The notes beneath the pieces were generated by a model. That model was not told the origin of the DNA. It saw nothing but the letters and a program-made list of their open reading frames with translations, and did no database searches. Position numbers and translations under genes: made by a program. A DNA stretch of 64,000 nucleotides. Source: Dethiosulfovibrio peptidovorans DSM 11002 (GTDB lineage: Bacteria > Synergistota > Synergistia > Synergistales > Dethiosulfovibrionaceae). Below are positions 31,304-55,489 of the stretch, in pieces. How positions within the stretch are numbered: position 1 is the stretch's first letter; the number at the start of each line of letters is the position of its first letter. The DNA is taken from NCBI RefSeq assembly GCF_000172975.1, contig NZ_ABTR02000001.1, positions 1,340,501 through 1,404,500 of the forward strand, given 5' to 3'.

Positions 31304-31385
31304 ACAAGTGTTATCCCGACCAAGTCGGATATCCCCTATAATCGAATTCGGTGAATTTTATCGAAATATTTTAGGAGGTAGAGAC

Positions 31386-32792
31386 GTGGAACGACTTAGA
31401 CAGAGTATCGATGCCATGAAGGACGATATCGTCGCGGCCATCAGGGAAAACGTAGCGGTCAAAAGCGTGGAAGGTCCCGCCGAGCCGGGAGCTCCCTTCG
31501 GTCCCGGACCTAAAGCGGCGATGGATAACTTCGTTCAGATAGCCAGTCGCCTCGGTTTCGAAACCGGTGTATTCGAGGATATGGTCGGTTGGGCCGAGTT
31601 CGGAGATCCCGATGCCGATATGGTGGCCATCCTCGGTCACGTCGACGTGGTTCCCGAGGGAGACGGCTGGAGCTGTGATCCCTACGAGGGCAAAATAGAG
31701 GACGGCAAACTCTACGGTCGAGGAGTCATGGACGATAAGGGTCCGGTGATCTGCGCTCTCTATGCTTTAAAGGCCATAAAAGATCTCGAGATTCCCCTCA
31801 AGAAACGGATTAGGATCCTGGTCGGAACAAACGAGGAAAGTGGCAGCAAGGCCGTAGCCCGTTACGTAGAGGCAGGACAGGATCTCCCCGTCGCGGGCTT
31901 TACCCCCGATGCGGAGTACCCTCTGATAAACGGAGAAAAAGGTATCGTCATAGCCAGACTCTCTGCCCCCTTCAAGGCGGAAGGAGACATCCAGGTGGTT
32001 TCCTTCGACGGAGGCGTAGCGCCTAACTCGGTGCCTTCGGTGGCCAAGGCGGAGATTCTCGTGAAGGCCGATATGGTCGAAAGGGTCAAGTACACCGTAT
32101 CGAACTGGCATGGCCCGGAGAGGGCAAAACTGTCTTTGGAGGATAAGGGAGAGGGCCGTTTCCTGCTGTCCATGGAGGGAGTTCCTGCCCACGGTAGTCT
32201 TCCGGAGCAGGGAGTCAACGCAGTGGCCTGGCTGGTAAAGGTCCTGCTCACACTTGGTGTTACCGGCGAGCAGGGGCGTACCTTGGCCGCCTTGGATCGC
32301 TACGTGGGAATCGACTGTCACGGAGAGAACCTGGGAGTCTGCGTCTACGACGACGTATCCAGATACACCTCTGTCTGCTGGGGCACCATGAAGACCGAGG
32401 GAGACAGGGTAGTCTTCAGCCTGAACCCGAGGTTCCCCGTGAGCTATCGCACCGAGGACATGGTAAAGACCCTCGAGAAGACCTTCTCCGATGCTGGATT
32501 CGAGATCCTGTCCATGAGAAAGGACGAGCCTCTCTATATGCCGGAGGACTCCGAACTGGTGGTCAATCTGATGGAGGTCTATCGTAGGGAGACCGGTCGG
32601 ATGGACGACAAACCTATGTCCATCGGAGGAGGAACCTACGCCAAAGCCATGCCGAACGTATTGGCCTTCGGTCCGATCCTTCCGGGCGAGCCGTCCAACA
32701 TACATGAGGCTGACGAGTGCTGGAGTATCGAGAATATGATGACCAGTACCAAGATAATGGCGGCCGCCATAGTCTCTTTGGCCGAGGACTAG
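31386..32792 (+). CDS. PepV-like M20 dipeptidase
   Basis: A zinc dipeptidase of about 468 residues. The metal motifs are ILGHVDVVPEGDGWSCDPYEG, YGRGVMDDKGPVICALYALK and VGTNEESGSK, and the substrate His lies in EGVPAHGSLPEQGVNA. The C-terminal GGGTYAKAMPNVLAFGPILPGEPSNIHEADE is characteristic of PepV. GTG at 31386 follows AGGAGGTAGAGAC; the longer frame from 31308 has no ribosome site. Ten bases downstream is an RraA-like gene, probably in the same transcript. The role is intracellular peptide degradation. Confidence 0.92.
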   Translation: MERLRQSIDAMKDDIVAAIRENVAVKSVEGPAEPGAPFGPGPKAAMDNFVQIASRLGFETGVFEDMVGWAEFGDPDADMVAILGHVDVVPEGDGWSCDPYEGKIEDGKLYGRGVMDDKGPVICALYALKAIKDLEIPLKKRIRILVGTNEESGSKAVARYVEAGQDLPVAGFTPDAEYPLINGEKGIVIARLSAPFKAEGDIQVVSFDGGVAPNSVPSVAKAEILVKADMVERVKYTVSNWHGPERAKLSLEDKGEGRFLLSMEGVPAHGSLPEQGVNAVAWLVKVLLTLGVTGEQGRTLAALDRYVGIDCHGENLGVCVYDDVSRYTSVCWGTMKTEGDRVVFSLNPRFPVSYRTEDMVKTLEKTFSDAGFEILSMRKDEPLYMPEDSELVVNLMEVYRRETGRMDDKPMSIGGGTYAKAMPNVLAFGPILPGEPSNIHEADECWSIENMMTSTKIMAAAIVSLAED

Positions 32793-42708: not shown

Positions 42709-42751
42709 GTGCTATACTCGTTAATGGATACATTTTTCGGAGGTGATATCG

Positions 42752-44182
42752 ATGGATATAGCGGTTTTCAGTGGTGAACTCCCCGCCGTGAGGGCGGTGG
42801 CGGTTTTGTGTTTTGACGATGGAATCTCGGAGGACGTGCTGGATGGAGCTCCGACCAGGGCGATGGCCCATTTCGAAGGCAAGGGTAAAAAGGGCGAGTT
42901 CCTTCGTTATCCCTTGGAGGGAGAGGTAAGGGATCTCTTCCTCGTCGGTCTGGGGAAGAGGGACGAATGCGGTCTTGGGAACTACAGAAACGCAGTGTCC
43001 GATGCCGTGAGGAAGGTTGGGGCCATGGGAATCTCCGAGTTGGCCTTCGTCCTTCCGGTGACTCCCGACGAGGCGATCAGCTCCGCCGTGGCGGAAGGAG
43101 CCGTTTTGGGGAACTATCGTTTCGACCGTTTTCGTTCTCCCAAGGAAGAGGAGCGTTCCGTATCGGTCGATACCCTGTATCTCAAGGATGGACAGAGATC
43201 TGGACTCGACAGGGGGATCGTCCTAGGCGAGGCTCAGGCTGCCTCGAGAGATCTGGCAAATCGCCCCGGAAACGACGTGATCCCGGAGACGATGGCCGAC
43301 GAGGCCGTGAGAATCGCGAAAAAACACGGTATGGAGTGCGATGTCTGGGACGAAGACCGCATCCAGGAGGAAAGGATGTCGGCTCTGTGGCACGTCGGGA
43401 AAGGGTCGGAGAACAAGCCTCGCTTTATCCACATGGTCTATCGTCCCGCAGGAAAGCCTCGTCGAAAGGTGGCCTTGGTGGGCAAGGGAATAACCTTCGA
43501 CAGCGGTGGCCTCTGCATAAAAGGGCGGACCGGCATCAGGACGATGAAATGCGACAAGACCGGAGGTTGCAACGTCCTGGCGATAATGGAGGCGGTGGGC
43601 CGGCTTAAGCCGGACATCGAGGTCCACGGAATAGTGGGAGCGGCGGAGAACATGCCCGATGGGGCCTCCTACCGCCCGGACGATATAGTGAGGGCCAGAA
43701 ACGGTAAGACTATCGAGATAGTCAACACCGACGCCGAGGGCAGGGTAACCTTGGCGGACAGTCTATCTTTCGCCTCCGAGCTGGAGGTTGATGCGATAAT
43801 CGACATGGCGACCCTCACCGGTGCCGCCGTGACTGCCCTCGGGAACTATACTGCAGGTCTAATATGCGACTTCGACGACCTGAGCCGTCAGGTGATGTCG
43901 GCATCCGAGAGGGCTGGGGAGAGGTTCCACCGTTTCGCAATGGACGACGAGAAGCTAAGGGAGCAGATCGATTCTCCCGTCGCGGATGTCCTTAACTCCG
44001 GCGGTCCCGGTGGCGGCATGATAACGGCTGGCATGTTCCTCAGGGAGTTTGTGAGCCCCGAGATACCCTGGGCCCACATGGACATAGCCGGGGTGGACTT
44101 CTACGAGAAAGCCTTCGATTGCTACGGCAAGGGAGCCACCGCCTTCGGGGTCAGAACCTGTCTGGAGTTTCTCTTGAGTTAA
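42752..44182 (+). CDS. pepA: Leucyl aminopeptidase (M17)
   Basis: A cytosolic two-zinc aminopeptidase of about 476 residues that removes N-terminal residues from peptides. The catalytic domain has LVGKGITFDSGGLCIKGRTG, MKCDKTGGCNVLAIMEAV, AENMPDGASYRPDDIV and the signature NTDAEGRVTLADSL, followed by IDMATLTGAAVTALG. The N-terminal domain is more variable, as usual. ATG at 42752 follows GGAGGTGAT. Its position between two peptide-binding protein genes fits a peptide-fermenting lifestyle. The MITE-like copy B lies directly downstream. Confidence 0.95.
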   Translation: MDIAVFSGELPAVRAVAVLCFDDGISEDVLDGAPTRAMAHFEGKGKKGEFLRYPLEGEVRDLFLVGLGKRDECGLGNYRNAVSDAVRKVGAMGISELAFVLPVTPDEAISSAVAEGAVLGNYRFDRFRSPKEEERSVSVDTLYLKDGQRSGLDRGIVLGEAQAASRDLANRPGNDVIPETMADEAVRIAKKHGMECDVWDEDRIQEERMSALWHVGKGSENKPRFIHMVYRPAGKPRRKVALVGKGITFDSGGLCIKGRTGIRTMKCDKTGGCNVLAIMEAVGRLKPDIEVHGIVGAAENMPDGASYRPDDIVRARNGKTIEIVNTDAEGRVTLADSLSFASELEVDAIIDMATLTGAAVTALGNYTAGLICDFDDLSRQVMSASERAGERFHRFAMDDEKLREQIDSPVADVLNSGGPGGGMITAGMFLREFVSPEIPWAHMDIAGVDFYEKAFDCYGKGATAFGVRTCLEFLLS

Positions 44183-44615: not shown

Positions 44616-46250
44616 ATGAAGAGAATTGTCGTTTTGGTTGTTTTAGCCTGCGCCCTTGTGTTCATCTTTGATTCTGTATCGGTTGCTGAGACTGTCGATA
44701 GGTACGGAGGAACCCTAAAATGGAGGATAGTTGCCGATCCGCCTAGGCCCGATCCAGCTCAAGCTACCGACACGACCTCGACCATGGTCATATTCAAGTA
44801 CGCTGAGGGGCTGGTCAAGACCGATCCAGACACCATGGAAATCCTTCCTAGCTTGGCAGAGAGCTGGGAAGTCAATGACGACGCAACGCGGTGGACTTTT
44901 CACCTTCGCAAGGGAGTTCATTTTCAAAAAGAGGCCGGTGGAGAACCCACGTTAAACGGCGGCAGGGAGATGGTGGCCTCTGACGTCAAGTACTCTTTCG
45001 AACGTCATTTAAAGATGAATTCTCCCAGAATGACCAGACTTGAGTCCATACTTGGTTATCAGGATTTCCTTGACGGCAAATCGGATAGCTGGGAAGGTAT
45101 AGATGTTCTGGACGACCATACGGTGAAATTCACCCTGTCCAAGCCTTTCGTGCCGTTTCTCATAAACCTGACTCAGGCCTATTTCGTCATAGTCCCAAGG
45201 GAGGACTGCGAAAAGTGGGGAAAGGATTTCGTCTTTCATCCCGTAGGGACAGGTCCCTTTGCCTTCAAAAGCTGGGTCCATGATAGCAAATACATCATGA
45301 AGCGAAACCCCGATTACTGGCGTAAGGATGAAGAAGGAGGGAGTCTACCCTATTTAGATGGAGTCGAATACGTCGTAATTCCGGATAATGCCATAGCCTA
45401 TATGGAGTTCAAAAAGGCTAATTTGGATGTCTTGCCAGATATACCGGATGCCTTTTACGAAAAAGTCAAGGGGAACTACAAACCCAAGGGGCTTATGGTT
45501 GAAAAGCCTTGGACCGGAGTGTATTACTATGGGTTCAACCTCATGAGGCCTCCTTTTGGAGATAATCCTACCCTTAGAAGAGCCTTGAATTACGCCATAG
45601 ACAGAGAAGCTCTTAACGATCTTGTTATAAACGGTCGTTACGTGCCATCCGATGGTGTAACCCCTCCTGGGTTCTTTCCGTACGAAAAGCCTATAAAAGG
45701 TTATAGCTACGATCCTAAAAAAGCAAAGGCGCTTCTTGCCGAGGCAGGTTATGCCGATGGATTCAAGACCGTTCTCCAGATCAACAATGATCAGAGACAC
45801 AGATCGTTGGGAGAGGCTATTCAGGCTCAGATGAGAGATATCGGAGTGGATATGAGCATAAGGGTAGTAGATTGGGGAGTCCATCTGGATACTCTGGCCA
45901 GAGGTGAATTCGAGATATTCCGACTTGGTTGGATTGCGTCACCGGATCCGGACAGTTTCCTCTACGACCTTCTTCATTCTTCCAATTGTGGTGGAAAGGG
46001 CAATAGAGCACGCTACAAGAACGATAAGGTGGACGACCTTCTGGAGAGGGCCAGGGCCGAGACCGATCCTAAGGCCAGGATGGCCCTCTACAACGAGGCA
46101 GAGCAGATCATAGTCGACGACGCTCCGTGGCTTTTCCTGTTCAACTACACGTCCAGCATGGCCTGGAACGACAGTGTAAAAGGGCTAGTCCTCCACAGTG
46201 CTGGACCCGATACTTGCGATCTCTCGGTCGTATGGAAGAGCTCTAAGTAA
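44616..46250 (+). CDS. Oligopeptide/dipeptide ABC substrate-binding protein, second copy
   Basis: A 544-residue paralogue of the protein at 41007-42644, with the same order of motifs: RIVADPPRPDPAQATDTTST, AESWEVNDDATRWTFHLRKGVHF, VKYSFERHLKMNSPRM, LRRALNYAIDREALNDLVINGRYVPSDG. The signal peptide is KRIVVLVVLACALVFIFDSVSV. ATG at 44616 follows GGGAGG. The DNA is more AT-rich than the first copy and uses more A/T-ending codons, especially in the first two thirds. It may have come in by transfer, or have been exchanged. It precedes an amidohydrolase gene after a terminator and probably supplies the catabolic genes downstream. Confidence 0.92.
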   Translation: MKRIVVLVVLACALVFIFDSVSVAETVDRYGGTLKWRIVADPPRPDPAQATDTTSTMVIFKYAEGLVKTDPDTMEILPSLAESWEVNDDATRWTFHLRKGVHFQKEAGGEPTLNGGREMVASDVKYSFERHLKMNSPRMTRLESILGYQDFLDGKSDSWEGIDVLDDHTVKFTLSKPFVPFLINLTQAYFVIVPREDCEKWGKDFVFHPVGTGPFAFKSWVHDSKYIMKRNPDYWRKDEEGGSLPYLDGVEYVVIPDNAIAYMEFKKANLDVLPDIPDAFYEKVKGNYKPKGLMVEKPWTGVYYYGFNLMRPPFGDNPTLRRALNYAIDREALNDLVINGRYVPSDGVTPPGFFPYEKPIKGYSYDPKKAKALLAEAGYADGFKTVLQINNDQRHRSLGEAIQAQMRDIGVDMSIRVVDWGVHLDTLARGEFEIFRLGWIASPDPDSFLYDLLHSSNCGGKGNRARYKNDKVDDLLERARAETDPKARMALYNEAEQIIVDDAPWLFLFNYTSSMAWNDSVKGLVLHSAGPDTCDLSVVWKSSK

Positions 46251-46318: not shown

Positions 46319-46339
46319 GTGAAAGGTGGTTTTTATATT

Positions 46340-47494
46340 ATGAAGGCTATAGTCAACGCAACGGTTATAACGGTCTCTGGGGAGGACCTCGTCGGATCCA
46401 CGGTTATCCTTAAGGACGGAAAGATCCAATCGGTGGGAGCTACGGAGATCCCGTATGGGACCGAGATCATTGACGGAATGGGGAAGTTTCTCTCACCTGG
46501 ACTGATCGACGCTCATACCCATCTTGGTGTTTCCACCGAGGGCTCCCCTGCGGAGTTCTACGATCACAACGATCGTTCTTCATCGGTTCTGCCTGAACTC
46601 AGGATAGTGGACTCGCTATACCCTGGAGATCCCGGTTTCGAGGAGGCCAGGATGGGGGGTGTGACCACGGTTCAGAGCCTTCCTGGAAGTGCCGACGTGG
46701 TCGGTGGAACGGGGGCCGTCATAAAGACGGTCGGAAACGTCGTGGATCGGATGATCGTAGTTGCTCCCTCCTCTATGAAGGCCGCGTTAGGCGAGAACCC
46801 CATAAGGACCTTCCAGGGAAAAAACGGCCTCCCCTCCACCAGGATGGGATGCGCTGCATGCCTGAGGAAGGCACTGGCTGACGCTCAGTCCTACATTTTG
46901 GACAGGTCTGATAAGGAGGCTGACAGCAAGCCGTTCAAGAGGGACCTGGCCATGGAGCAGATGGCTCTAGTTATAGAGGGCAAGATCCCTTTAAGCGTAC
47001 ACGCCCACAGGGCCGACGACATCTGCACCGCCATAAGGGTGGCGGAGGAGTTTAAGGTTCCCTACACGATCGAACACTGCACTGAGGGCCATTTAATAAA
47101 GGACTTCTTGGCTGAGAAATCTGTGAAGGCCGCAATTGGGCCGCTGAACACGTCCCGAAGGAAGATGGAGCTGGCCAACAGAAGTTGGGAGCTCCCTATC
47201 ACTCTGGAGAAGCAGGGGGTGCATTTCTGTATTATCACCGATCATCCTGTGATACCGATATCCGACTTGATCCTTGAGACATCCCTGGCGGTCAGGGCCG
47301 GGCTGGGGATTAAGACCGCCATGAGGGCCATCACCTTAAGCGCCGCGGAGCATCTAGGCATAGACCACATGGTTGGGTCCATTGAGGAGGGCAAAGACGG
47401 CGATCTGGTGCTCTGGAGCGGCCATCCTCTGGAGTTTAACTCCAAGGTGGAGATGACCTTTATAGACGGAAAAACCGTATATAGTCGAGAGTGA
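46340..47494 (+). CDS. Amidohydrolase-superfamily enzyme (imidazolonepropionase/dipeptidase-like)
   Basis: A metal-dependent hydrolase of about 384 residues. The N-terminal beta sandwich (AIVNATVITVSGEDLVGSTVILKDGKI) leads into GKFLSPGLIDAHTHLGVS with the HxH metal pair. Further His residues lie in PLSVHAHRADD and YTIEHCTEGH, and the catalytic Asp in IITDHPVIP. MGGVTTVQSLPGSADVVGGTG and a C-terminal GSIEEGKDGDLVLWSGHPLE are also typical. Related proteins hydrolyse cyclic amides or N-acyl compounds; the substrate cannot be read. ATG at 46340 follows AAAGGTGG with a long spacer. Context (peptide-binding protein, M20 deacylase, PucR regulator) suggests breakdown of an imported amide or modified peptide. 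Confidence 0.85.
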   Translation: MKAIVNATVITVSGEDLVGSTVILKDGKIQSVGATEIPYGTEIIDGMGKFLSPGLIDAHTHLGVSTEGSPAEFYDHNDRSSSVLPELRIVDSLYPGDPGFEEARMGGVTTVQSLPGSADVVGGTGAVIKTVGNVVDRMIVVAPSSMKAALGENPIRTFQGKNGLPSTRMGCAACLRKALADAQSYILDRSDKEADSKPFKRDLAMEQMALVIEGKIPLSVHAHRADDICTAIRVAEEFKVPYTIEHCTEGHLIKDFLAEKSVKAAIGPLNTSRRKMELANRSWELPITLEKQGVHFCIITDHPVIPISDLILETSLAVRAGLGIKTAMRAITLSAAEHLGIDHMVGSIEEGKDGDLVLWSGHPLEFNSKVEMTFIDGKTVYSRE

Positions 47495-47539
47495 TAAGGA
47501 GAGGCGGTCCTTAAGGACCGCCTCTCCTTATCACTCTTT
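47490..47539. terminator. Perfect 46-base palindrome between convergent genes
   Basis: AGTGATAAGGAGAGGCGGTC and its exact complement, with the central CTTAAG, form a 23-bp stem spanning 47490-47535, then CTTTT. It overlaps the TGA of the amidohydrolase gene and ends ten bases before the M20 stop, so it serves both directions. Confidence 0.85.
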
Positions 47540-47544
47540 TCCCG

Positions 47545-48738
47545 TTAGCTCAGTTGTTCCGCAGCCCAGAGGGCTATCAGCTTTGTCGCCTCAACGATAG
47601 AGGCCGTGTCCGACCTCTCGTTGGGCTGATGTGCCATTGTTGGATCCCCTGGTCCGAAAATGACAACCGGAAGGCCGCAGTGGGGCCCGAAAATGGATGC
47701 GTCGGTGTAGAACGCCACCGCCTTTTTTACGGGGGATACGGACAGAAGCTGCTCCACCTGGTTTGCAAGGGATTCTACCGCAGGGTCCCCTTTGTCTATC
47801 TCGTATGGAGCGCGGTCGTTCAGCACTTTGATCGAGATATCAAGCCCTGGCCTGTCTCGCATCAGCTGATTCGCCCAATCGCTCATCTCCTTCAGAAGCT
47901 CCTGATGGTCCTGTCCTGGGATGGTCCTTATGTCCACGCTGGCTGTGGCCAGATCCGGTATCACGTTGGTTCCTACACCTCCCGACATCAGGTTTACGCT
48001 GGCCGTAGAGGGACCGAGGTCCTGGTGAGGCTGACTCTGGAACTCGACCCATCTGGATCTGAGCTTCCACATAAAATCGCACAATCCCTCCAGGGCGTTT
48101 ACCCCGCACTGTGGCATCGATCCGTGGGCGGTCTTTCCCTTCGCCGTTACTGTGATCCAGAAACAGCCCTTCTCCGCGGTGTAGATCTCCAGGTTGGTGG
48201 GCTCTGCGATGAGGACCGTCCCTATATCCTTTACCGAGTCCGATGAGGCTATGGCTCTGGCTCCCATGCTTACAGTCTCCTCGCTGGAGGACAGTGCCAG
48301 CGTAAGGGGCCCCTTCAGTGCCATTCCCGATGCAGCGAGGGCGGCGGTCGCGTATGTCATCGCTGCGTCTCCAGCCTTCATGTCGGAGGCTCCTCTGCCG
48401 TAGATGTAGCCTCCTTCCACCTTGCCTGAGAAAGGATCCCTGTCCCATGTGATCTCGCCTGGCGGAACCGTGTCTAGATGGCCGTTTAACATGATCCCTG
48501 GAACGTCCTTGGCTTTGCCCACCGTTGCTACCACGCTCCGATAGTTATCGCCGTGGTCCAATATCTCGCACTCCAGCCCTAGCGACCTGATCTCCCTTGC
48601 CGCCACGTCGGCCACCTCCCTCTCGTCTCCAGGAGGGTTTACCGAGTTGGCCTTTATCAGCCGTGACGTGAAATCAAGGATCTTGTTGGTATTGCTGTCC
48701 ACGAAGTCTATTATGGATCGCCTGATATCGTCTCTCAT
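47545..48738 (-). CDS. M20 family deacylase/peptidase (ArgE/DapE type)
   Basis: A 397-residue zinc hydrolase. Motifs are IMLNGHLDTVPPGEITWDRDPFSG, YGRGASDMKAGDAAM, LSSSEETVSMGA with the catalytic Glu, and the substrate-binding KGKTAHGSMPQCGVNA. The C-terminal AFYTDASIFGPHCGLPVVIFGPGD completes the fold. ArgE/DapE-like members remove acyl groups from amino acids. It is the last gene of a minus-strand operon with two membrane proteins (spacings of 28 and 12 bases), which suggests that it cleaves what they import. A fourth M20 type in this window, distinct from those at 8.1 and 31.4 kb. Confidence 0.9.
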   Translation of the reverse strand: MRDDIRRSIIDFVDSNTNKILDFTSRLIKANSVNPPGDEREVADVAAREIRSLGLECEILDHGDNYRSVVATVGKAKDVPGIMLNGHLDTVPPGEITWDRDPFSGKVEGGYIYGRGASDMKAGDAAMTYATAALAASGMALKGPLTLALSSSEETVSMGARAIASSDSVKDIGTVLIAEPTNLEIYTAEKGCFWITVTAKGKTAHGSMPQCGVNALEGLCDFMWKLRSRWVEFQSQPHQDLGPSTASVNLMSGGVGTNVIPDLATASVDIRTIPGQDHQELLKEMSDWANQLMRDRPGLDISIKVLNDRAPYEIDKGDPAVESLANQVEQLLSVSPVKKAVAFYTDASIFGPHCGLPVVIFGPGDPTMAHQPNERSDTASIVEATKLIALWAAEQLS

Positions 48739-48766
48739 GGTGATGCTCCTTTCGGTCTTTCGCGCT

Positions 48767-49441
48767 CTAGATCAGCTTCTTAACGTACAGGAGCCTCCCT
48801 ATGGCTATGGTCCCGAATATTGACATTACTATAACCACCCATGTTTGGGTAAAAAACCCTATTCCGCTCCAATATAGCCCTAGAGGTATGGCTATTCCCG
48901 GTATTGCCAGTACCGGATATTTTAGGGCGAACTGACCGAAAACCGCCCCGAATATGGCCGCCACGGTGTATTTCTTGAAGGCCAGGGCTATGGCAGGAGG
49001 GAACGCCGCAAGCAGAGCAGTACCAGCCAACGCCGCTAATGTAACGAAAAACAGGTTTGTCACCACCGATCCGGTAAGCCCCAACGTGGAGATTATCTCA
49101 GCCTCTGGAGTTCCGGGCTCTACACCAACCACGTCCTGGGCCACGGCGGAGCATGGTACTCTCAGGTTTCCTATATTGCCGGTCAGGAAAGATATATAGG
49201 TCCCAGTCAGTCCCAGTATCGGAAAGTATGACACTGGTTCTACTATGTAAAATGCACCGAACATGGAGATTATCATAGCCCAGCTTTTCATGGCTACGGT
49301 CATCGAGGGAAAGGCTCCATGGACCAGATAGAGGTAAACGCACGGTAAAAATGTGAGGGCCGCTGTTAGCAAAACGGTGAAACGGCCTATCCTGATGGCC
49401 GGTGCCCTCCAAAGGGAGTCAAATACGTTTTTATTGCTCAT
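48767..49441 (-). CDS. Multispanning membrane protein, partner of the DUF5058-like protein
   Basis: A 224-residue protein with about six membrane segments (FTVLLTAALTFLPCVYLYLV; WAMIISMFGAFYIVEPVSYF; VVTNLFFVTLAALAGTALLA; YPVLAIPGIAIPLGLYW; WVVIVMSIFGTIAIGRLLYV). A polar loop in the middle (NLRVPCSAVAQDVVGVEPGTPEAEIISTLG) may reach into the cytoplasm. I do not recognise the family. It starts 12 bases after the stop of the DUF5058-like gene and ends 28 bases before the M20 gene. Together the two membrane proteins look like a heteromeric carrier or channel. Confidence 0.75.
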   Translation of the reverse strand: MSNKNVFDSLWRAPAIRIGRFTVLLTAALTFLPCVYLYLVHGAFPSMTVAMKSWAMIISMFGAFYIVEPVSYFPILGLTGTYISFLTGNIGNLRVPCSAVAQDVVGVEPGTPEAEIISTLGLTGSVVTNLFFVTLAALAGTALLAAFPPAIALAFKKYTVAAIFGAVFGQFALKYPVLAIPGIAIPLGLYWSGIGFFTQTWVVIVMSIFGTIAIGRLLYVKKLI

Positions 49442-49453
49442 TTTCCTTGCCTC

Positions 49454-50191
49454 CTATACCATGACCACGGCAAAGGCCATTCCTATCAGCATAGCTATGC
49501 CGAGGGTGTATTCTTTTAGCCAGGTGTGCTTCTCGGCGACCTTGAGCAGGATCATCATGGAGATCAGGCCTCCTACGGCGGCGTAGAGGGGGCCGCCCGC
49601 TCCCTCTATCTGTGCTGACGCGGATAGCTGATCTATTCCAGTCTTTATGTTGCCTGCGTTGAGAAAACCGAAGCATCCCAAAGAGGCCGCACCGGAGAGG
49701 ATCGCCAGCCATTTGGTGTCCCCTCCTCCGACTCTCTCCCTCAATGCCTCCAGTTTATGGGTGAACAACCCAACAAACAGGAGCCATCCGACCCCGTTTA
49801 TGGTCATGGTCCACCAGGATGTGGCCAGAGCTGTAAGGTCGTAGGATGACGAACCGAACTCGACCCCGTATGCCTGGGATCCTACCGTAGCCGCTGTCAG
49901 CTCGGTCGGTGCTGCTCCGATTATCGATAGCCTAAGCCAGGTTATAGGTGCTCCTACTACCGACATCATCCCGACCATTACGATGAAGACCGCTATGGAA
50001 GGACCTATGGCTGATATGCTTCCCGATCTGAGTCCTTTTACGCAGAGATCCCTCGAAAAACCGACCTGGTCAGCTGTTTTAAAGGCTAATCGAATGTATA
50101 ATAAAGATTGAATCAAAGCTATTAGCACTATAAGCACAGCTATCGCCCACACTACGCCGCTGTTGGCTATCCTTAGAACTTCCGCTGGCAA
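49454..50191 (-). CDS. DUF5058-like membrane protein
   Basis: A 245-residue protein with about seven membrane segments. The opening LRIANSGVVWAIAVLIVLIALIQSLLYIRLAFK, the segment KGLRSGSISAIGPSIAVFIVMVG and APITWLRLSIIGAAPTELTAA match what I remember of the uncharacterised family DUF5058. The signal-like conserved NSG and the WLRLSIIGAxPxE motif may line a substrate path. TTG at 50191 is preceded by AGGAGGAGGG. It is the first gene of the operon with the partner membrane protein and the M20 deacylase; a PucR-type regulator lies just upstream on the same strand. No transport function is proven for the family to my knowledge. Confidence 0.7.
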   Translation of the reverse strand: MPAEVLRIANSGVVWAIAVLIVLIALIQSLLYIRLAFKTADQVGFSRDLCVKGLRSGSISAIGPSIAVFIVMVGMMSVVGAPITWLRLSIIGAAPTELTAATVGSQAYGVEFGSSSYDLTALATSWWTMTINGVGWLLFVGLFTHKLEALRERVGGGDTKWLAILSGAASLGCFGFLNAGNIKTGIDQLSASAQIEGAGGPLYAAVGGLISMMILLKVAEKHTWLKEYTLGIAMLIGMAFAVVMV

Positions 50192-50245
50192 GATGAATCC
50201 CTCCTCCTATTTTTATCCAGATCCCCTAGAACCCTCCGGATGTCC

Positions 50246-50272
50246 ATATGATAGGGTTCAATATGATAAGGG
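50246..50272 (-). promoter_or_regulatory. Direct repeat, possible operator of the DUF5058 operon
   Basis: ATATGATAGGG (50246-50256) and ATATGATAAGGG (50261-50272) are direct repeats with a 15-base pitch, between the PucR gene terminator and the DUF5058-like gene. They may bind the neighbouring PucR-type protein. The evidence is position and repetition only. Confidence 0.4.
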
Positions 50273-50290
50273 TCATCCTATATAAAGGAC

Positions 50291-50341
50291 GAAAAAAAGC
50301 CTATATTTAGAGCTTAATTGGCTAAGCTTCAAATATAGGCT
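50291..50341 (-). terminator. Terminator of the PucR-type regulator gene
   Basis: Read on the minus strand, AGCCTATATTT pairs with AAATATAGGCT around an inner AAGCTTAG/TTAAGCT-type stem and is followed by seven Ts. It ends the regulator transcript just before the DUF5058 operon, so that operon needs its own promoter. Confidence 0.85.
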
Positions 50342-50363
50342 GGGAATATTTAGTTCCTTGGGG

Positions 50364-51980
50364 TCAATATTCCTCAAGGTCTTGGTTCATGAGGTACAGC
50401 TTTAGCGATAGAGCCAGGTTCAGCCTTTGCTCGCTGTCCTCGGGGTCAAACTCAAGGAGGTCGCATATCTTGGCGTAGCGGTATTTCAGTGTGCTGTAGT
50501 GGACGGAGAGGTCCTTGGCCGCCGCCTTCATCTGCCAGTTGTTTCTGACCATGGCTTTGAGGGTCCTTAGTAACTCCGATTTTCGCCTCTTGTCGTGGTC
50601 TATTATCGGCCCGATGTACTCCCTGTAGAAGGAATGTCCTGTGTCGGTGTCGTATAGGGATCCCAGAATCTTGTAAGCTCCCAGGTCCTTCCAGAAAGTT
50701 ACCCGGTTACCGCCTGTTGCCGCCCTGACCATCTCGAGGGCTTTTCTCGCCTCATCGTAGCTGTGGTGACACTCGAAGACGCTGTCTTTGGGACTTCCGA
50801 TCCCTATGGTCACGGTAAAGTGGGTGTCCTCCTTTATGGAGGTCTGAATATCCCTAAAAAGCGGTGTGGTCTTGGCCTTAAAGGCCGGGAACCCTTCTTC
50901 TGTGGGCAGTATGAACGAGATGGAGTCGCTCATTTCTGTATAGGGAACCGATTCGAACAGGCCATGAACGTGATTTTTGCAGATGCGGTATATCCGCTTT
51001 TTAGTGCTTTCCAGCATAGGAAGAAAATCCCTCTCCCTTGATCTCTTCTCGAACTGGTGTTTGTAGTTGTCTATGTCCATGACGACGACGCAGTGGGATC
51101 CCTGGAGGTCCCATCCGAACATCTTCGCTCTGTTCCACACCTCCCCCTCGAACCTTAGGTTATGTATGAGGATATCCTGTACGAACTCGTTACGATATCG
51201 ACTCTCCGCCTGGATCTCGGCTACGCGTCTCTGCATGTAGAGTAATATTGCTCCCTTGGCCTGGGTGATGGGTATCTCGCAGTTTCGCTCCGCTAGGTCC
51301 TCCTGTTTGCAGTCGAAAAGGAGATATCCGTATACCTTGCCGTTTAGCGATATGGAGTCTGGAGTCCCCGACGAGAGCAGGTCTCTCAGCGGGATGGAAT
51401 CGAACCTGGACCGTAACGACTGGGCTTCTCCGAAGAAGTATCTTTCCCCTGTGAGGGTGTCGACGAACCCGAAGGGTTTATGGGTGAAGTTCTGTAGGTT
51501 CTCCAGTATAGTCTTAAGATCCGCTCCGTTTACCGAGAGGTTGAAGAAGGAGTGACGGACCGTTTCTGAATAGCGTAGAAGCCTGGCCTGTCTGTTGACT
51601 ATCTCCGACAGTACCGGATGGATTATGTCGGCAAAGGCGAAGTGGTTGGGGACGTGGATCAGAGGTATCGATGAGGATTCCGCTAGCTCTATCGCTTTAG
51701 ATGGGACCTCCTTTATGTAGCGATCGGTCTTTATGCCAAGACCCGCCGCCCCTATCTCTGCCAGGCTTTTTATCAGATCCATCAAGAGCTCAGTCGAGTC
51801 CTTGAAAATATAGCCGGAACTTACGATGAGATCCCCTTCCCTGACCCATGAACAAGCGTCAGGTGCGTCCATGACGGTCACGCTTCTAACCTGTCTGGAA
51901 GCGATGTTAGCGGCTCCAGCTATAACCCTGAGCCCCTTCATGGGCGGCAGATCCAGGATTTCTTGAATTGTCATGCTCAA
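50364..51980 (-). CDS. PucR-family transcriptional regulator
   Basis: A 538-residue regulator. The N-terminal PucR sensory domain reads TIQEILDLPPMKGLRVIAGA, SVTVMDAPDACSWVREGDLIVSSGY and AAGLGIKTDRYIKEVP. A middle GGDEF-like/CdaR region follows (CVVVMDIDNYKHQF, VTIGIGSPKDSVFECHHSYDEA). The C-terminal helix-turn-helix is MVRNNWQMKAAAKDLSVHYSTLKYRYAKICDLL. Such proteins usually activate nearby catabolic or transport genes when an intermediate accumulates. It lies directly upstream of the DUF5058-partner-M20 operon. The frame opens with TTG at 51980; ATG at 51974 is equally plausible. Confidence 0.88.
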   Translation of the reverse strand: MSMTIQEILDLPPMKGLRVIAGAANIASRQVRSVTVMDAPDACSWVREGDLIVSSGYIFKDSTELLMDLIKSLAEIGAAGLGIKTDRYIKEVPSKAIELAESSSIPLIHVPNHFAFADIIHPVLSEIVNRQARLLRYSETVRHSFFNLSVNGADLKTILENLQNFTHKPFGFVDTLTGERYFFGEAQSLRSRFDSIPLRDLLSSGTPDSISLNGKVYGYLLFDCKQEDLAERNCEIPITQAKGAILLYMQRRVAEIQAESRYRNEFVQDILIHNLRFEGEVWNRAKMFGWDLQGSHCVVVMDIDNYKHQFEKRSRERDFLPMLESTKKRIYRICKNHVHGLFESVPYTEMSDSISFILPTEEGFPAFKAKTTPLFRDIQTSIKEDTHFTVTIGIGSPKDSVFECHHSYDEARKALEMVRAATGGNRVTFWKDLGAYKILGSLYDTDTGHSFYREYIGPIIDHDKRRKSELLRTLKAMVRNNWQMKAAAKDLSVHYSTLKYRYAKICDLLEFDPEDSEQRLNLALSLKLYLMNQDLEEY

Positions 51981-52060: not shown

Positions 52061-52855
52061 TTACAGTGTCAGAGGTACTATTGCCTCCGGGCCGGGAACG
52101 AAGAATGTGAAGGATTCTGTGAGGAACAGCTCCACCATTCCGTTGGAGGATCCGGAGTAGCCTATGGAGAGATCCTGTCCAAGGACCAGGTCCATGTCCC
52201 CGCCTCTCTTGGAGATGACGAAGGAACGATCCACCATGGGGGACAACACGACTTCATCCACCATGGATTCTATCCTCTTTCTGAGGGGATATCCCTTGGA
52301 GAGGGTGGCTATCCTCTTCCACAGTTCCTTTTGGGCTATGAGGACGTACGGTCCCTCTACCGAGCTGGCTTTCAGAGTCATTACGGCGTCGGCGATGGCC
52401 TGTATGGCTCCGTCGTCGTCGGAGGATACCTTTACAGCTCCGTTCTCGGAGGAGTTCTCCATTCCCAGTATGCAGCTGGAGTCCATTCCGGTGTAGATCG
52501 CCTTCTCCTCGAAGAGAGCGATCTTTCTGGCCGCCTCCTCGAGGGGACTCATGTCGGTGGTCTCGCTGCCCCTGCTGATGTCGTCCAGATCCCAGCGACT
52601 CATGGCGAAGGGAACCCTGACCTCCACCAGAGGCTGAATTCTCCTTATTCCGTGGCTTGCTCCCTCCACGAATGGAGATTCGGATACGTCCAATCTTCCC
52701 ATGGGCCAGCCGTGATAATCCCAGCCGAAGGGTCCCTTGACGTCAACGACCCTTCTGGCCGAAAGGCAGCCCTTGAGGACGTCTCTGGCCTGTTCGTCTA
52801 TAGCGTCCCAGGCTTCCTGAGTGATAGGAGCCAAAGATCTTCTCAAAAGGTCCAT
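52061..52855 (-). CDS. Encapsulin shell protein (family 1)
   Basis: Forms the HK97-fold icosahedral shell of a protein nanocompartment. The 264 residues follow the Thermotoga type throughout: MDLLRRSLAPITQEAWDAID at the N-terminus, RRVVDVKGPFGWDYHGWPMG, FEEKAIYTGMDSSCILG, VEGPYVLIAQKELWK, VSKRGGDMDLVLGQDLSIGY-like ISKRGGDMDLVLGQDLSIGY and FLTESFTFFVPGPEAIV at the end. ATG at 52855 follows GGAGGAACAGAA. The gene starts 19 bases after the encapsulated ferritin gene, which is its native cargo. Confidence 0.97.
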   Translation of the reverse strand: MDLLRRSLAPITQEAWDAIDEQARDVLKGCLSARRVVDVKGPFGWDYHGWPMGRLDVSESPFVEGASHGIRRIQPLVEVRVPFAMSRWDLDDISRGSETTDMSPLEEAARKIALFEEKAIYTGMDSSCILGMENSSENGAVKVSSDDDGAIQAIADAVMTLKASSVEGPYVLIAQKELWKRIATLSKGYPLRKRIESMVDEVVLSPMVDRSFVISKRGGDMDLVLGQDLSIGYSGSSNGMVELFLTESFTFFVPGPEAIVPLTL

Positions 52856-52874
52856 TTCTGTTCCTCCTTATTCG

Positions 52875-53228
52875 TCAGCTAAGCTTGCCGAGCCCGAGGT
52901 CCGATCCTCCGGCCGATGTTCCACTGGAATCGGCGTCCCCGCCGTCCTCCAGGGAGAGTATCTCGGCTTCGGTGAAGAGGTAATCTCTCAGTTCATCGTC
53001 CCATTTGTCCATGTTGCGGCGCAGCCACTCGATGGTCATACAGGCGTGTTCTATTTCCTCGTCTCTGTTATGGGCCATTATGGCCTTCAGTTGAGCGTCG
53101 GTGGACGTTGCCACCCTCTGGTTGTAGTAGTCAACCGCTTCCAGTTCCTCTTTCAGGCTGCTGATAGCACGAGAGATCTCTCTGGTCTTGTCGTCAAGCG
53201 CTTCATAGGGTTCGAAATACCCTGCCAT
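52875..53228 (-). CDS. Encapsulated ferritin-like protein (EncFtn) with cargo-loading tail
   Basis: A 117-residue ferroxidase that works only as a ring inside the encapsulin shell, where it oxidises Fe(II) for storage. Two helices carry the metal ligands: ISSLKEELEAVDYYNQRV with the first Glu, and HNRDEEIEHACMTIEWLRR with Glu and His spaced ExxH. After an acidic and Gly/Ser-rich linker (LEDGGDADSSGTSAGG), the protein ends SDLGLGKLS, a textbook encapsulin targeting peptide. ATG at 53228 follows GGGAGGCGG. It is the first gene of the two-gene operon. Confidence 0.95.
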   Translation of the reverse strand: MAGYFEPYEALDDKTREISRAISSLKEELEAVDYYNQRVATSTDAQLKAIMAHNRDEEIEHACMTIEWLRRNMDKWDDELRDYLFTEAEILSLEDGGDADSSGTSAGGSDLGLGKLS

Positions 53229-53305: not shown

Positions 53306-55489
53306 CTAGCCCAGAGCGGTTCCTGCCGCAGCGGACGCCCCGGCTTTTCTGACGAAATCCAGCTGTTCTTCCGTGTCTATTCCCGTCGCCACAGTGTCCA
53401 GGCTCAGCTTTTCGCCCAGGCCGATCATGGTTTTCAGGGCGAAATAGGACAGATCTTCCTCCATTCTGTCTATTTTCGTCATCTCCGGGTAGATTTTCAG
53501 CGATTTAAGCGGCAACTCTATCAGAATGTCGATTGGGATGTAGTGTTTGCCGAAGTTTCTTATGGCCAGAGAAATCCCGATAGAGGATAGCTCGTCCAAC
53601 AGGGAGGTCAGTCTTTCTACGTCCTTGGCCAGAAGAGCGTCGTCGATAGACAGCTCCAAAGACGACGGTTCTCTGCCCTCGTCTTTAAGCATCCCGGAGA
53701 GGCATAGTGATAGGCCGCCGTTCCAGAGATGCCAGGAAGACAGATCCATGGTCAGAGGTGTCCGGGGTTTTTCCTTCATGGCTTTTCTGAGAACCGTCAG
53801 GTCTATCTGGGTAGCTATGCCCGTATTTTCCGCCCTTTCCATGTAGGGTAGACCTTCTAGTGCGTCACATCTTGGGACTACCTTTATAGCCCTGAGTCCT
53901 CTATCTCCCTGTATGTGGAATTCCGGCAGATACTGGGGGTAGAAGGCGTCCATTTCCATTGCCTCTCGGATGTTTTTGTCGAGCTTCGTACCCTCTTCGT
54001 CGACTCCGTCCTCTTTTTCGTCGTATACCGCGATGCCTAGACCTCTTCTCTTGGCCCTGTACATGGCGGAGTCGGCGGATCGGAAGAGAGAATCGGGGGT
54101 CTCGCCGTCTTTAGGATAGAAGGCTATTCCTAAGCTGGCCGAGACCAGGAGAGAGGAGTCCTCCATGGCGAAAGGCTCTCTCAGCGAGTTCAGGATTCTC
54201 TCGCTCTGTGCCATGGTGCTCGAAAATATATCGTCTTGCCCTACCACTATTGCGGAGAATTCGTCTCCTCCTATTCGGGCGATGGAGTTTTTCTCGTCCA
54301 TGACAGATAAAAAACGACGGCTGACTTCTTTCAGTAGTAGGTCTCCCACGGAATGACCGAACCTGTCGTTTATGGCCTTGAAGCCGTTGAGGTCTATCAT
54401 TACCAGTCCCACCTGAAGTTTTTCCGATAGGGATTTATCGAGGATACCGGCTAGCTTTTCCTCCAGTGCCCTTCGGTTTTCGAGACCGGTCAGCACGTCC
54501 TCGAGAGACTCTCTCTTTCTGGTCCTGAGAAGGTTGTTGAAGGCCTTGCAAAGCGTTCCTATTTCGTCGTCTTGATAGTCGTCCAGGAGGAGAGGGGTAT
54601 CCCTGGATGCCTGTCTCTCCAGGGACTCTAGCCTCTTGAAGAATTTTCGGTCCAACCATAACAACGTGCCGGACCCCACGATAAGACTGGAGATGACCAA
54701 GGCCAATATGCACCAAAGAAGGAGGCTTTCGCCGGCGTGTATCAGATGAGACGGATGGTCGATGACCATTTTTACGGGGGTAATGCCTTTTATCTCTGGT
54801 AGGTCGACCGTCAGGTACACCCGATCCTGAAAGATGTTTTCCGGGAACGACCTCTTTGGTAGACCATCCTCCGGGATCAGCCTTACCTCCGCCGTCTCTC
54901 TCGAAGGGGTGAACCAGCTTTTATTCGGGATCGATCCCATGACCATCCATCCCGCCGACGGACCGGAACAGTCGTTCTGGAGAATAGGAGACGCCGTGAC
55001 GGCGGTTATCCCGAGTATAGGCAGTACTCCGTATCCGGATAGGCTACAGTTTTCATCTTGAATCTGATCCATGAGAATTTCTCGAATAGAATGTATTATA
55101 GGGTTGGGGATGGTTACGACGGTTGGCCGTTCTTCGCCCCTAAGAGCGCTCCAGATCGGCATACCGCGGTCGTCGAAGACGGCTATCAGGGCTAGTCCGT
55201 TGTCCCATAGAGATTCGGGGGGGATGTTTTCATCTATGTAAGAGAGATCTTCGTTACGAGCGAAGTCGTAGGTCGCGTTCCACCAGGACCAATCCTCGTT
55301 CAGACGGAGCTGGGCTCCCAGCATCTTTTCGGCGGCCGAGGTCATATGTATCGAAAGGTCCTCCAGCTGCTGTACCTCCAGTTTTCGGAAACGAGCCGTC
55401 TGGATGGTCCCGACCAGCAATGTCGCCATGAATAGCAGGGCTGTCGTGGCTATGACTATCACCGATAGAGATTGAGATCGCAATTTCAT
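53306..55489 (-). CDS. CHASE4-GGDEF protein with degenerate EAL domain
   Basis: A 727-residue membrane signalling protein. One N-terminal segment (SVIVIATTALLFMATLLVGT) precedes a CHASE4-like sensor (LNEDWSWWNATYDFARNEDLSYI) to about residue 260; a second segment (LLLWCILALVISSLIVGSGTLLW) and a short linker follow. The diguanylate cyclase domain is intact, with MIDLNGFKAINDRFGHSVGD and RIGGDEF near 410, but the product-inhibition RxxD is absent (DEKN). The last 220 residues have the EAL fold without its catalysts: GLRAIKV stands for the EAL strand, and IRNFGKHY replaces DDFGTGY. It therefore probably makes c-di-GMP, and the EAL part may bind it or a partner. Confidence 0.85.
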   Translation of the reverse strand: MKLRSQSLSVIVIATTALLFMATLLVGTIQTARFRKLEVQQLEDLSIHMTSAAEKMLGAQLRLNEDWSWWNATYDFARNEDLSYIDENIPPESLWDNGLALIAVFDDRGMPIWSALRGEERPTVVTIPNPIIHSIREILMDQIQDENCSLSGYGVLPILGITAVTASPILQNDCSGPSAGWMVMGSIPNKSWFTPSRETAEVRLIPEDGLPKRSFPENIFQDRVYLTVDLPEIKGITPVKMVIDHPSHLIHAGESLLLWCILALVISSLIVGSGTLLWLDRKFFKRLESLERQASRDTPLLLDDYQDDEIGTLCKAFNNLLRTRKRESLEDVLTGLENRRALEEKLAGILDKSLSEKLQVGLVMIDLNGFKAINDRFGHSVGDLLLKEVSRRFLSVMDEKNSIARIGGDEFSAIVVGQDDIFSSTMAQSERILNSLREPFAMEDSSLLVSASLGIAFYPKDGETPDSLFRSADSAMYRAKRRGLGIAVYDEKEDGVDEEGTKLDKNIREAMEMDAFYPQYLPEFHIQGDRGLRAIKVVPRCDALEGLPYMERAENTGIATQIDLTVLRKAMKEKPRTPLTMDLSSWHLWNGGLSLCLSGMLKDEGREPSSLELSIDDALLAKDVERLTSLLDELSSIGISLAIRNFGKHYIPIDILIELPLKSLKIYPEMTKIDRMEEDLSYFALKTMIGLGEKLSLDTVATGIDTEEQLDFVRKAGASAAAGTALG

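Follow-up and report, generated by a model that had tools for sequence, protein, structure and literature searches.

Two small membrane proteins encoded side by side, a member of the DUF5058 family (MP1) and a protein of an unnamed family (MP2), are probably the obligate subunits of one carrier for amide-bonded amino-acid derivatives, whose imported substrate would be split by a neighboring cytoplasmic hydrolase. Judged from sequence, this would be a hitherto undescribed carrier family of a split, two-subunit type. A search of one literature library detected no paper naming DUF5058 or PF16481 and none describing the pair, in agreement with a preliminary description of this DNA, which knew of no transporter built from these two proteins.

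An operon of two membrane proteins and an M20 deacylase

The pair was identified in a 64,000-nucleotide stretch of the genome of Dethiosulfovibrio peptidovorans DSM 11002, referred to as the window. The features of the region, in window coordinates, are as follows.

42743..44182, plus strand: M17 leucyl-type aminopeptidase (PF00883, 1.4e-110), kept in the genus (L062, L063)
44616..46250, plus strand: SBP_bac_5 peptide-binding protein (PF00496, 9.8e-96)
46319..47494, plus strand: amidohydrolase (Amidohydro_1; PF01979, 1.3e-20), convergent neighbor
47491..47534, strand not assigned: stem of 20 pairs resembling a terminator, flanked by the M20 and amidohydrolase genes, which converge on it
47545..48738, minus strand: M20 deacylase of the ArgE/DapE type, 397 aa
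48767..49441, minus strand: MP2, 224 aa, a membrane protein of an unnamed family
49454..50191, minus strand: MP1, DUF5058 membrane protein, 245 aa, with a TTG start 3' of AGGAGG
50246..50275, strand not assigned: direct repeat ATATGATAGGGTTCA / ATATGATAAGGGTCA; a weak site resembling a promoter overlaps it
50298..50341, minus strand: intrinsic terminator of the PucR gene, an 18-bp hairpin followed by U7 (-21.6 kcal/mol, z = -5.75)
50364..51980, minus strand: PucR-type regulator (PucR, GGDEF_2 and HTH_30 domains), 538 aa (PF07905, 2.5e-32; PF13556, 1.4e-16)

The trio lies on the minus strand (47545-50191) in the order MP1, MP2, M20, and remeasurement gave gaps of 12 and 28 bases, confirming the tight arrangement of two membrane genes and an ArgE/DapE-type deacylase that had been reported; the three genes are presumably cotranscribed. 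MP1, previously labeled DUF5058-like, was found to be a full-length member of that family, matching PF16481 over positions 1-222 of 222 (1.8e-70; 237.5 bits versus a gathering cut-off of 28.2). No match to MP2 was detected in Pfam, NCBIfam, PHROG or PDB sequences. The Pfam family is itself unnamed, and its constant partner is without a family model. The deacylase contains M20 and M20_dimer domains (Pfam) and scored above the TIGR01910 DapE-ArgE cut-off (256.6 versus 217.6 bits) but below all of the NCBIfam equivalog cut-offs listed, including that for AcOrn deacetylase (190.5 versus 297.7 bits). Inspection by eye indicated that its metal and catalytic residues are kept, and a signal peptide was not apparent in the 397 residues. 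The closest solved structures were DapE (7uoi) and ArgE (7rsf).

The amidohydrolase and the peptide-binding protein that had been placed beside the operon were both verified by their Pfam matches. The amidohydrolase gene starts at 46319, the 46340 given previously being an alternative start, and its closest solved structure is 3ooq. It was rejected as a member of the operon, being convergent behind the strong 20-pair stem and having no counterpart in genus-mate L062. The peptide-binding protein and the M17 aminopeptidase are retained near the operon within the genus, in keeping with peptide-derived nutrients. A total of 21 M20 matches were detected in the whole 2.58-Mb genome, suggestive of a peptide- and amino-acid-using lifestyle; a further M20-family peptidase, of PepV-like length, is encoded within the window at 31308-32792 (plus strand).

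Obligate pairing of MP1 and MP2

The distribution of the two proteins was compared across genomes. Of 151 genomes sampled from the phylum, the 55 that encode MP1 are precisely those that encode MP2. A single genome holds up to five copies, and every MP2 gene was directly 3' of a same-strand MP1 gene, the exceptions being fragments (e.g., G134:C51 and G085:C115). One genus-mate (G038) had neither protein. In Clostridia, both were detected in the identical 29 of 293 genomes; the sole lone match was marginal (G255, 6e-4), while in another genome (G300) the two genes were on separate contigs, with MP2 cut by a contig end. Eleven plasmid records, from haloarchaea, Paracoccus, Vibrio and Paenarthrobacter, likewise carried both. 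A GTDB scan produced 337 MP2 relatives, and MP1 was immediately upstream in 76 of the best 80 loci, typically at a spacing of 10 to 30 bases; these 80 are the loci closest to the window, distant ones having been obtained through the genome and plasmid searches. The remaining four were explained by contig ends or by a broken or untagged MP1 frame. The expectation that the two genes would occur together across genomes, nearly always adjacent, was therefore borne out.

The two proteins have also diverged together. Divergence of MP1 was correlated with that of MP2 at r = 0.94 to 0.97, with 0.94 over 117 pairs, while the correlation of either protein with the M20 hydrolase was 0.68 to 0.71 (all loci). 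No natural fusions of MP1 and MP2 were seen. Comparison with hhalign, using shallow and deeper alignments, detected no similarity between the two sequences, and common descent of the subunits thus receives no sequence support despite their like order of helices. Such undetectable similarity would be expected if these were two independent single-subunit transporters for related substrates that are neighbors by chance. However, essentially no genome in either Bacteria or Archaea carries one alone, the proteins codiverge at r = 0.94 and single chains of six helices are small for secondary carriers, so this explanation is hardly credible. The comparisons argue instead for obligate subunits of one carrier.

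A phage origin of the pair was rejected. No relatives were detected in IMG/VR viral contigs, and the sole phage record with DUF5058 (L167; MT836200.1 in INPHARED), deposited as "Bacteriophage sp.," appears bacterial, since MP2 and an M20 gene of the ArgE/DapE type are present in it as well. The DNA in this record is probably bacterial and wrongly labeled, and PHROG 36725 may derive from it. With no viral-contig match and a full trio in the lone "phage" record, the membrane proteins were taken to be neither phage nor division proteins.

Association with exchangeable amide hydrolases

An M20 hydrolase was present within three genes of the pair in 108 of 121 loci, indicating that the association seen in the window recurs across genomes. 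The M20 gene was at position +1 in 75% of loci (88/118), at -1 in 20% and at +2 in 20%, with approximately 1% farther out, these position tags being derived from models built from members of the same loci. Independently of those models, Pfam detected an M20 domain in 55 of 59 same-strand genes directly 3' of MP2; 44 of the 55 matched the M20D amidohydrolase model and 11 matched ArgE/DapE. The other 13 of the 121 loci had no M20 gene within three genes, and in 9 of these a different amide hydrolase was encoded directly downstream: Amidohydro_3 (five loci), Amidohydro_1, an M81/MlrC-type protein, S58 (DmpA type) and glutaminase A. The five Amidohydro_3 proteins were nearest to NCBIfam PRK09061, with scores below the cut-off, and the Amidohydro_1 protein resembles Xaa-Pro dipeptidase.

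On a tree of concatenated MP1 and MP2, a quick tree with long branches, the hydrolase type switches at least approximately 18 times, and the ArgE/DapE type of the window sits among M20D-linked neighbors. No other recurring transporter family was observed among 107 neighbors. Sequence comparisons show that a hydrolase is linked to the pair and that its type has been exchanged, just as they show the pairing. Enzymes of unrelated folds beside one membrane pair are predicted by a common uptake module and not by a docking or sensor role. The proposal that the pair forms a carrier acting with a hydrolase was supported to this extent, the link recurring with M20 enzymes and extending to other amide hydrolases.

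Haloarchaeal trios were located beside glycine-cleavage-related genes in four of five plasmid-borne loci (L162, L166, L189 and L190). The adjoining genes, for glycine cleavage, serine hydroxymethyltransferase or lipoyl functions, were found in Haloterrigena, Haloarcula, Halobellus and Natronococcus and not in Halalkalicoccus; because of these neighbors, N-acylglycines are suggested as the substrate of the haloarchaeal trios. A gene of the TRIC-channel family was present upstream of the trio in three of the five loci.

The direction of transport is not fixed by sequence, and product exporters also occur in some catabolic hydrolase operons. As an alternative, the pair could expel a compound that the hydrolase forms or inactivates in the cytoplasm, whether a product, a surplus amino acid or an amide with toxic effects. 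This was considered unlikely, since the substrates of M20D, ArgE/DapE, N-acyl-D-amino-acid deacylase-like, S58 and glutaminase enzymes are external in nutrient use, the haloarchaeal copies adjoin catabolic glycine cleavage genes, and the neighborhood in the genus includes peptide-binding proteins and an aminopeptidase. Import by the pair, followed by cytoplasmic hydrolysis, remains the favored interpretation.

Predicted architecture and conserved residues

Single-chain AF2 models of moderate quality (pTM 0.63-0.70) were obtained for MP1 (pLDDT 86.6) and MP2 (pLDDT 83.9) from alignments of 66 and 77 rows, respectively. Both consist of TM1, a short helix, TM2, a break at approximately residues 88-93, another short helix and four long helices. 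A Foldseek search of the PDB with these moderate-quality single subunits gave no match for either model at E ≤ 0.001. The mean numbers of K plus R per loop were 0.65/4.42/1.53/3.73/0.91/1.33/0.09 for MP1, predicting six TM helices with both termini outside, and 3.18/0.47/1.75/0.27/1.83/0.51/2.17 for MP2, predicting six TM helices with both termini inside. The limits of the loops were drawn manually on the basis of the models, and with these borders loop L56 of MP1 is only slightly positive; the value of 1.75 for the third loop of MP2 includes the conserved R94, and the 153-160 stretch, inside the fourth helix of MP2, had a value of 0.79. This alternation of charge with opposite polarity suggests that two six-helix subunits are inserted in opposite orientations.

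Conservation was examined in 118 pairs. At the break, MP1 has invariant G80 and G92 and near-invariant W85, R87 and E97, while MP2 has conserved E68, G77, Y82, G88, N89, N92, R/K94 and P96, with a GNxxNxRxP motif at 88-96. In a four-member clade linked to Amidohydro_3 or M81 enzymes (L074, L078, L174 and L184), MP2 has E68Q, N92D and K at position 103, where D/E is usual outside this clade. These linked changes would agree with the break housing a site for a substrate or an ion, although they come from a single clade and perhaps reflect one event.

As no known transporter fold was matched and a hydrolase is almost always near the pair, it was also considered that the pair might be no carrier but a membrane sensor or anchor, by which the hydrolase is regulated or docked. 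For docking, a soluble interface would have to be conserved, yet the partner has been swapped among unrelated folds at least approximately 18 times; furthermore, the conserved residues are in or around the membrane-buried broken helix and not in loops, and the pair is without a soluble domain. A sensor or anchor is, therefore, decidedly improbable. In naming the pair a putative transporter, reliance was placed on topology and context, given that no PDB fold was matched.

Upstream region and regulation

The upstream PucR-type regulator and its own terminator, both noted previously, were confirmed by the PucR and HTH_30 domains and by the 18-bp U7 hairpin (z = -5.75). The PucR protein probably regulates the operon of the window. 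A PucR gene was, however, within four genes of the pair in only 34 of 121 loci, so that the proposed PucR link holds at this locus but not as a general feature, and a fixed association of PucR with the pair was ruled out.

The direct repeat reported between the regulator and the operon is present, with 13 of 15 bases identical at a 15-base pitch, and exceeded 398 of 400 shuffles of the same intergenic region, the other 2 being as good. It was not found in the closest relatives, however, where the best matches were 10 to 11 of 15 even when MP2 was 98% identical, and so it is not conserved in the genus. Because of this absence, a role as a conserved operator is unsupported. In the MP1 leader (50192-50290) of three genus members, the TATNATATG element and the stretch to AGGAGG are kept while the direct repeat is not; this conserved region would be a better candidate site for control elements.

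Next to the PucR gene, an encapsulin shell gene (Linocin_M18, 5.6e-79) lies directly downstream of a gene for EncFtn-like encapsulated-ferritin cargo (2e-41) at 52061-53228 (minus strand), the two constituting iron-storage nanocompartment genes. These adjoin a gene at 53306-55489 (minus strand) for a protein with GGDEF- and EAL-like segments, identified by eye, and a related GGDEF/encapsulin/PucR order is retained in a genus-mate (L063).

Comparison with known systems

The nearest precedent is DUF969/DUF979, a two-gene carrier for 5-oxoproline. It has been modeled as a heteromeric transporter of the IT superfamily to which each protein contributes a single repeat (PMC11467057). Deletion of cj0552-4 in Campylobacter abolished use of 5-oxoproline (PMC12795558). 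As with MP1/MP2, two small membrane proteins are usually co-encoded beside an amide (lactam) hydrolase, and the likeness, that of obligate co-encoded subunits, is in way of working and not in descent. The partners of MP1/MP2 differ, being M20, amidohydrolase, M81, S58 and glutaminase enzymes and not 5-oxoprolinase. Neither MP1 nor MP2 had a Pfam match to DUF969 or DUF979, and hhalign probabilities were below 5% throughout, compared with 99.9% for a control of MP1 against a divergent MP1; the same test also misses DUF969 against DUF979, leaving room for distant kinship. Kinship of the pair with DUF969/DUF979 was set aside as having no profile support.

The AbgA/AbgB amidohydrolase is of the M20D type. 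Together with AbgT, it mediates use of p-aminobenzoyl-glutamate in E. coli, an imported N-acyl amino acid being split in the cytoplasm (PMC5082436). This system resembles the one proposed here in combining a carrier with an M20D-type amidohydrolase acting in the cytoplasm, but AbgT is one large single-family protein to which MP1 and MP2 had no similarity in Pfam scans. Other pairs of small co-encoded multispanning proteins are YjiG/YjiH, which adjoin the dipeptidase IadA in E. coli, and SpmA/SpmB. These carry the nucleoside-recognition (Gate) domain, whereas MP1 and MP2 had no such match at E ≤ 0.1 to 1.

Proposed mechanism and significance

For transport itself, its direction and energy source, the antiparallel assembly and the substrate, we infer the following scheme. 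Antiparallel subunits would jointly build a pseudo-symmetric transport path, in which the broken helix after TM2 of each subunit would present conserved charged or polar residues: R87, G92 and E97 of MP1, and E68 and the GN-xx-N-x-R-x-P motif of MP2. The substrate would be a small amide-bonded amino-acid derivative, such as an N-acyl amino acid, a dipeptide or an amino-acid amide, with import driven by an ion gradient together with intracellular hydrolysis. The adjacently encoded cytoplasmic hydrolase would cleave the import, providing an amino acid for use by the cell and maintaining the inward gradient, and exchange of the hydrolase would change the substrate choice of a lineage. In the window, an ArgE/DapE-type hydrolase would act on an N-acyl amino acid or dipeptide, probably under control of PucR. 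A broader proposal, that MP1 and MP2 found a transporter superfamily with an unseen fold, an antiparallel heterodimer found in both Bacteria and Archaea and serving as a general importer of amide-bonded amino-acid nutrients, with specificity acquired along with the plugged-in hydrolase, is offered tentatively and is rather doubtful.

If the carrier interpretation is true, DUF5058 would gain a function and a partner, a constant second subunit without a model in the libraries searched. Because hydrolases from unrelated families replace one another, substrates could be predicted directly, operon by operon, and opposite orientation of the subunits, if true, would provide a further case for the origin of inverted-repeat transporters. 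As an importer of nutrients, the pair would be widespread among Synergistota and Clostridia that ferment amino acids, including those of the gut and rumen, and would be present also in haloarchaea and Proteobacteria.
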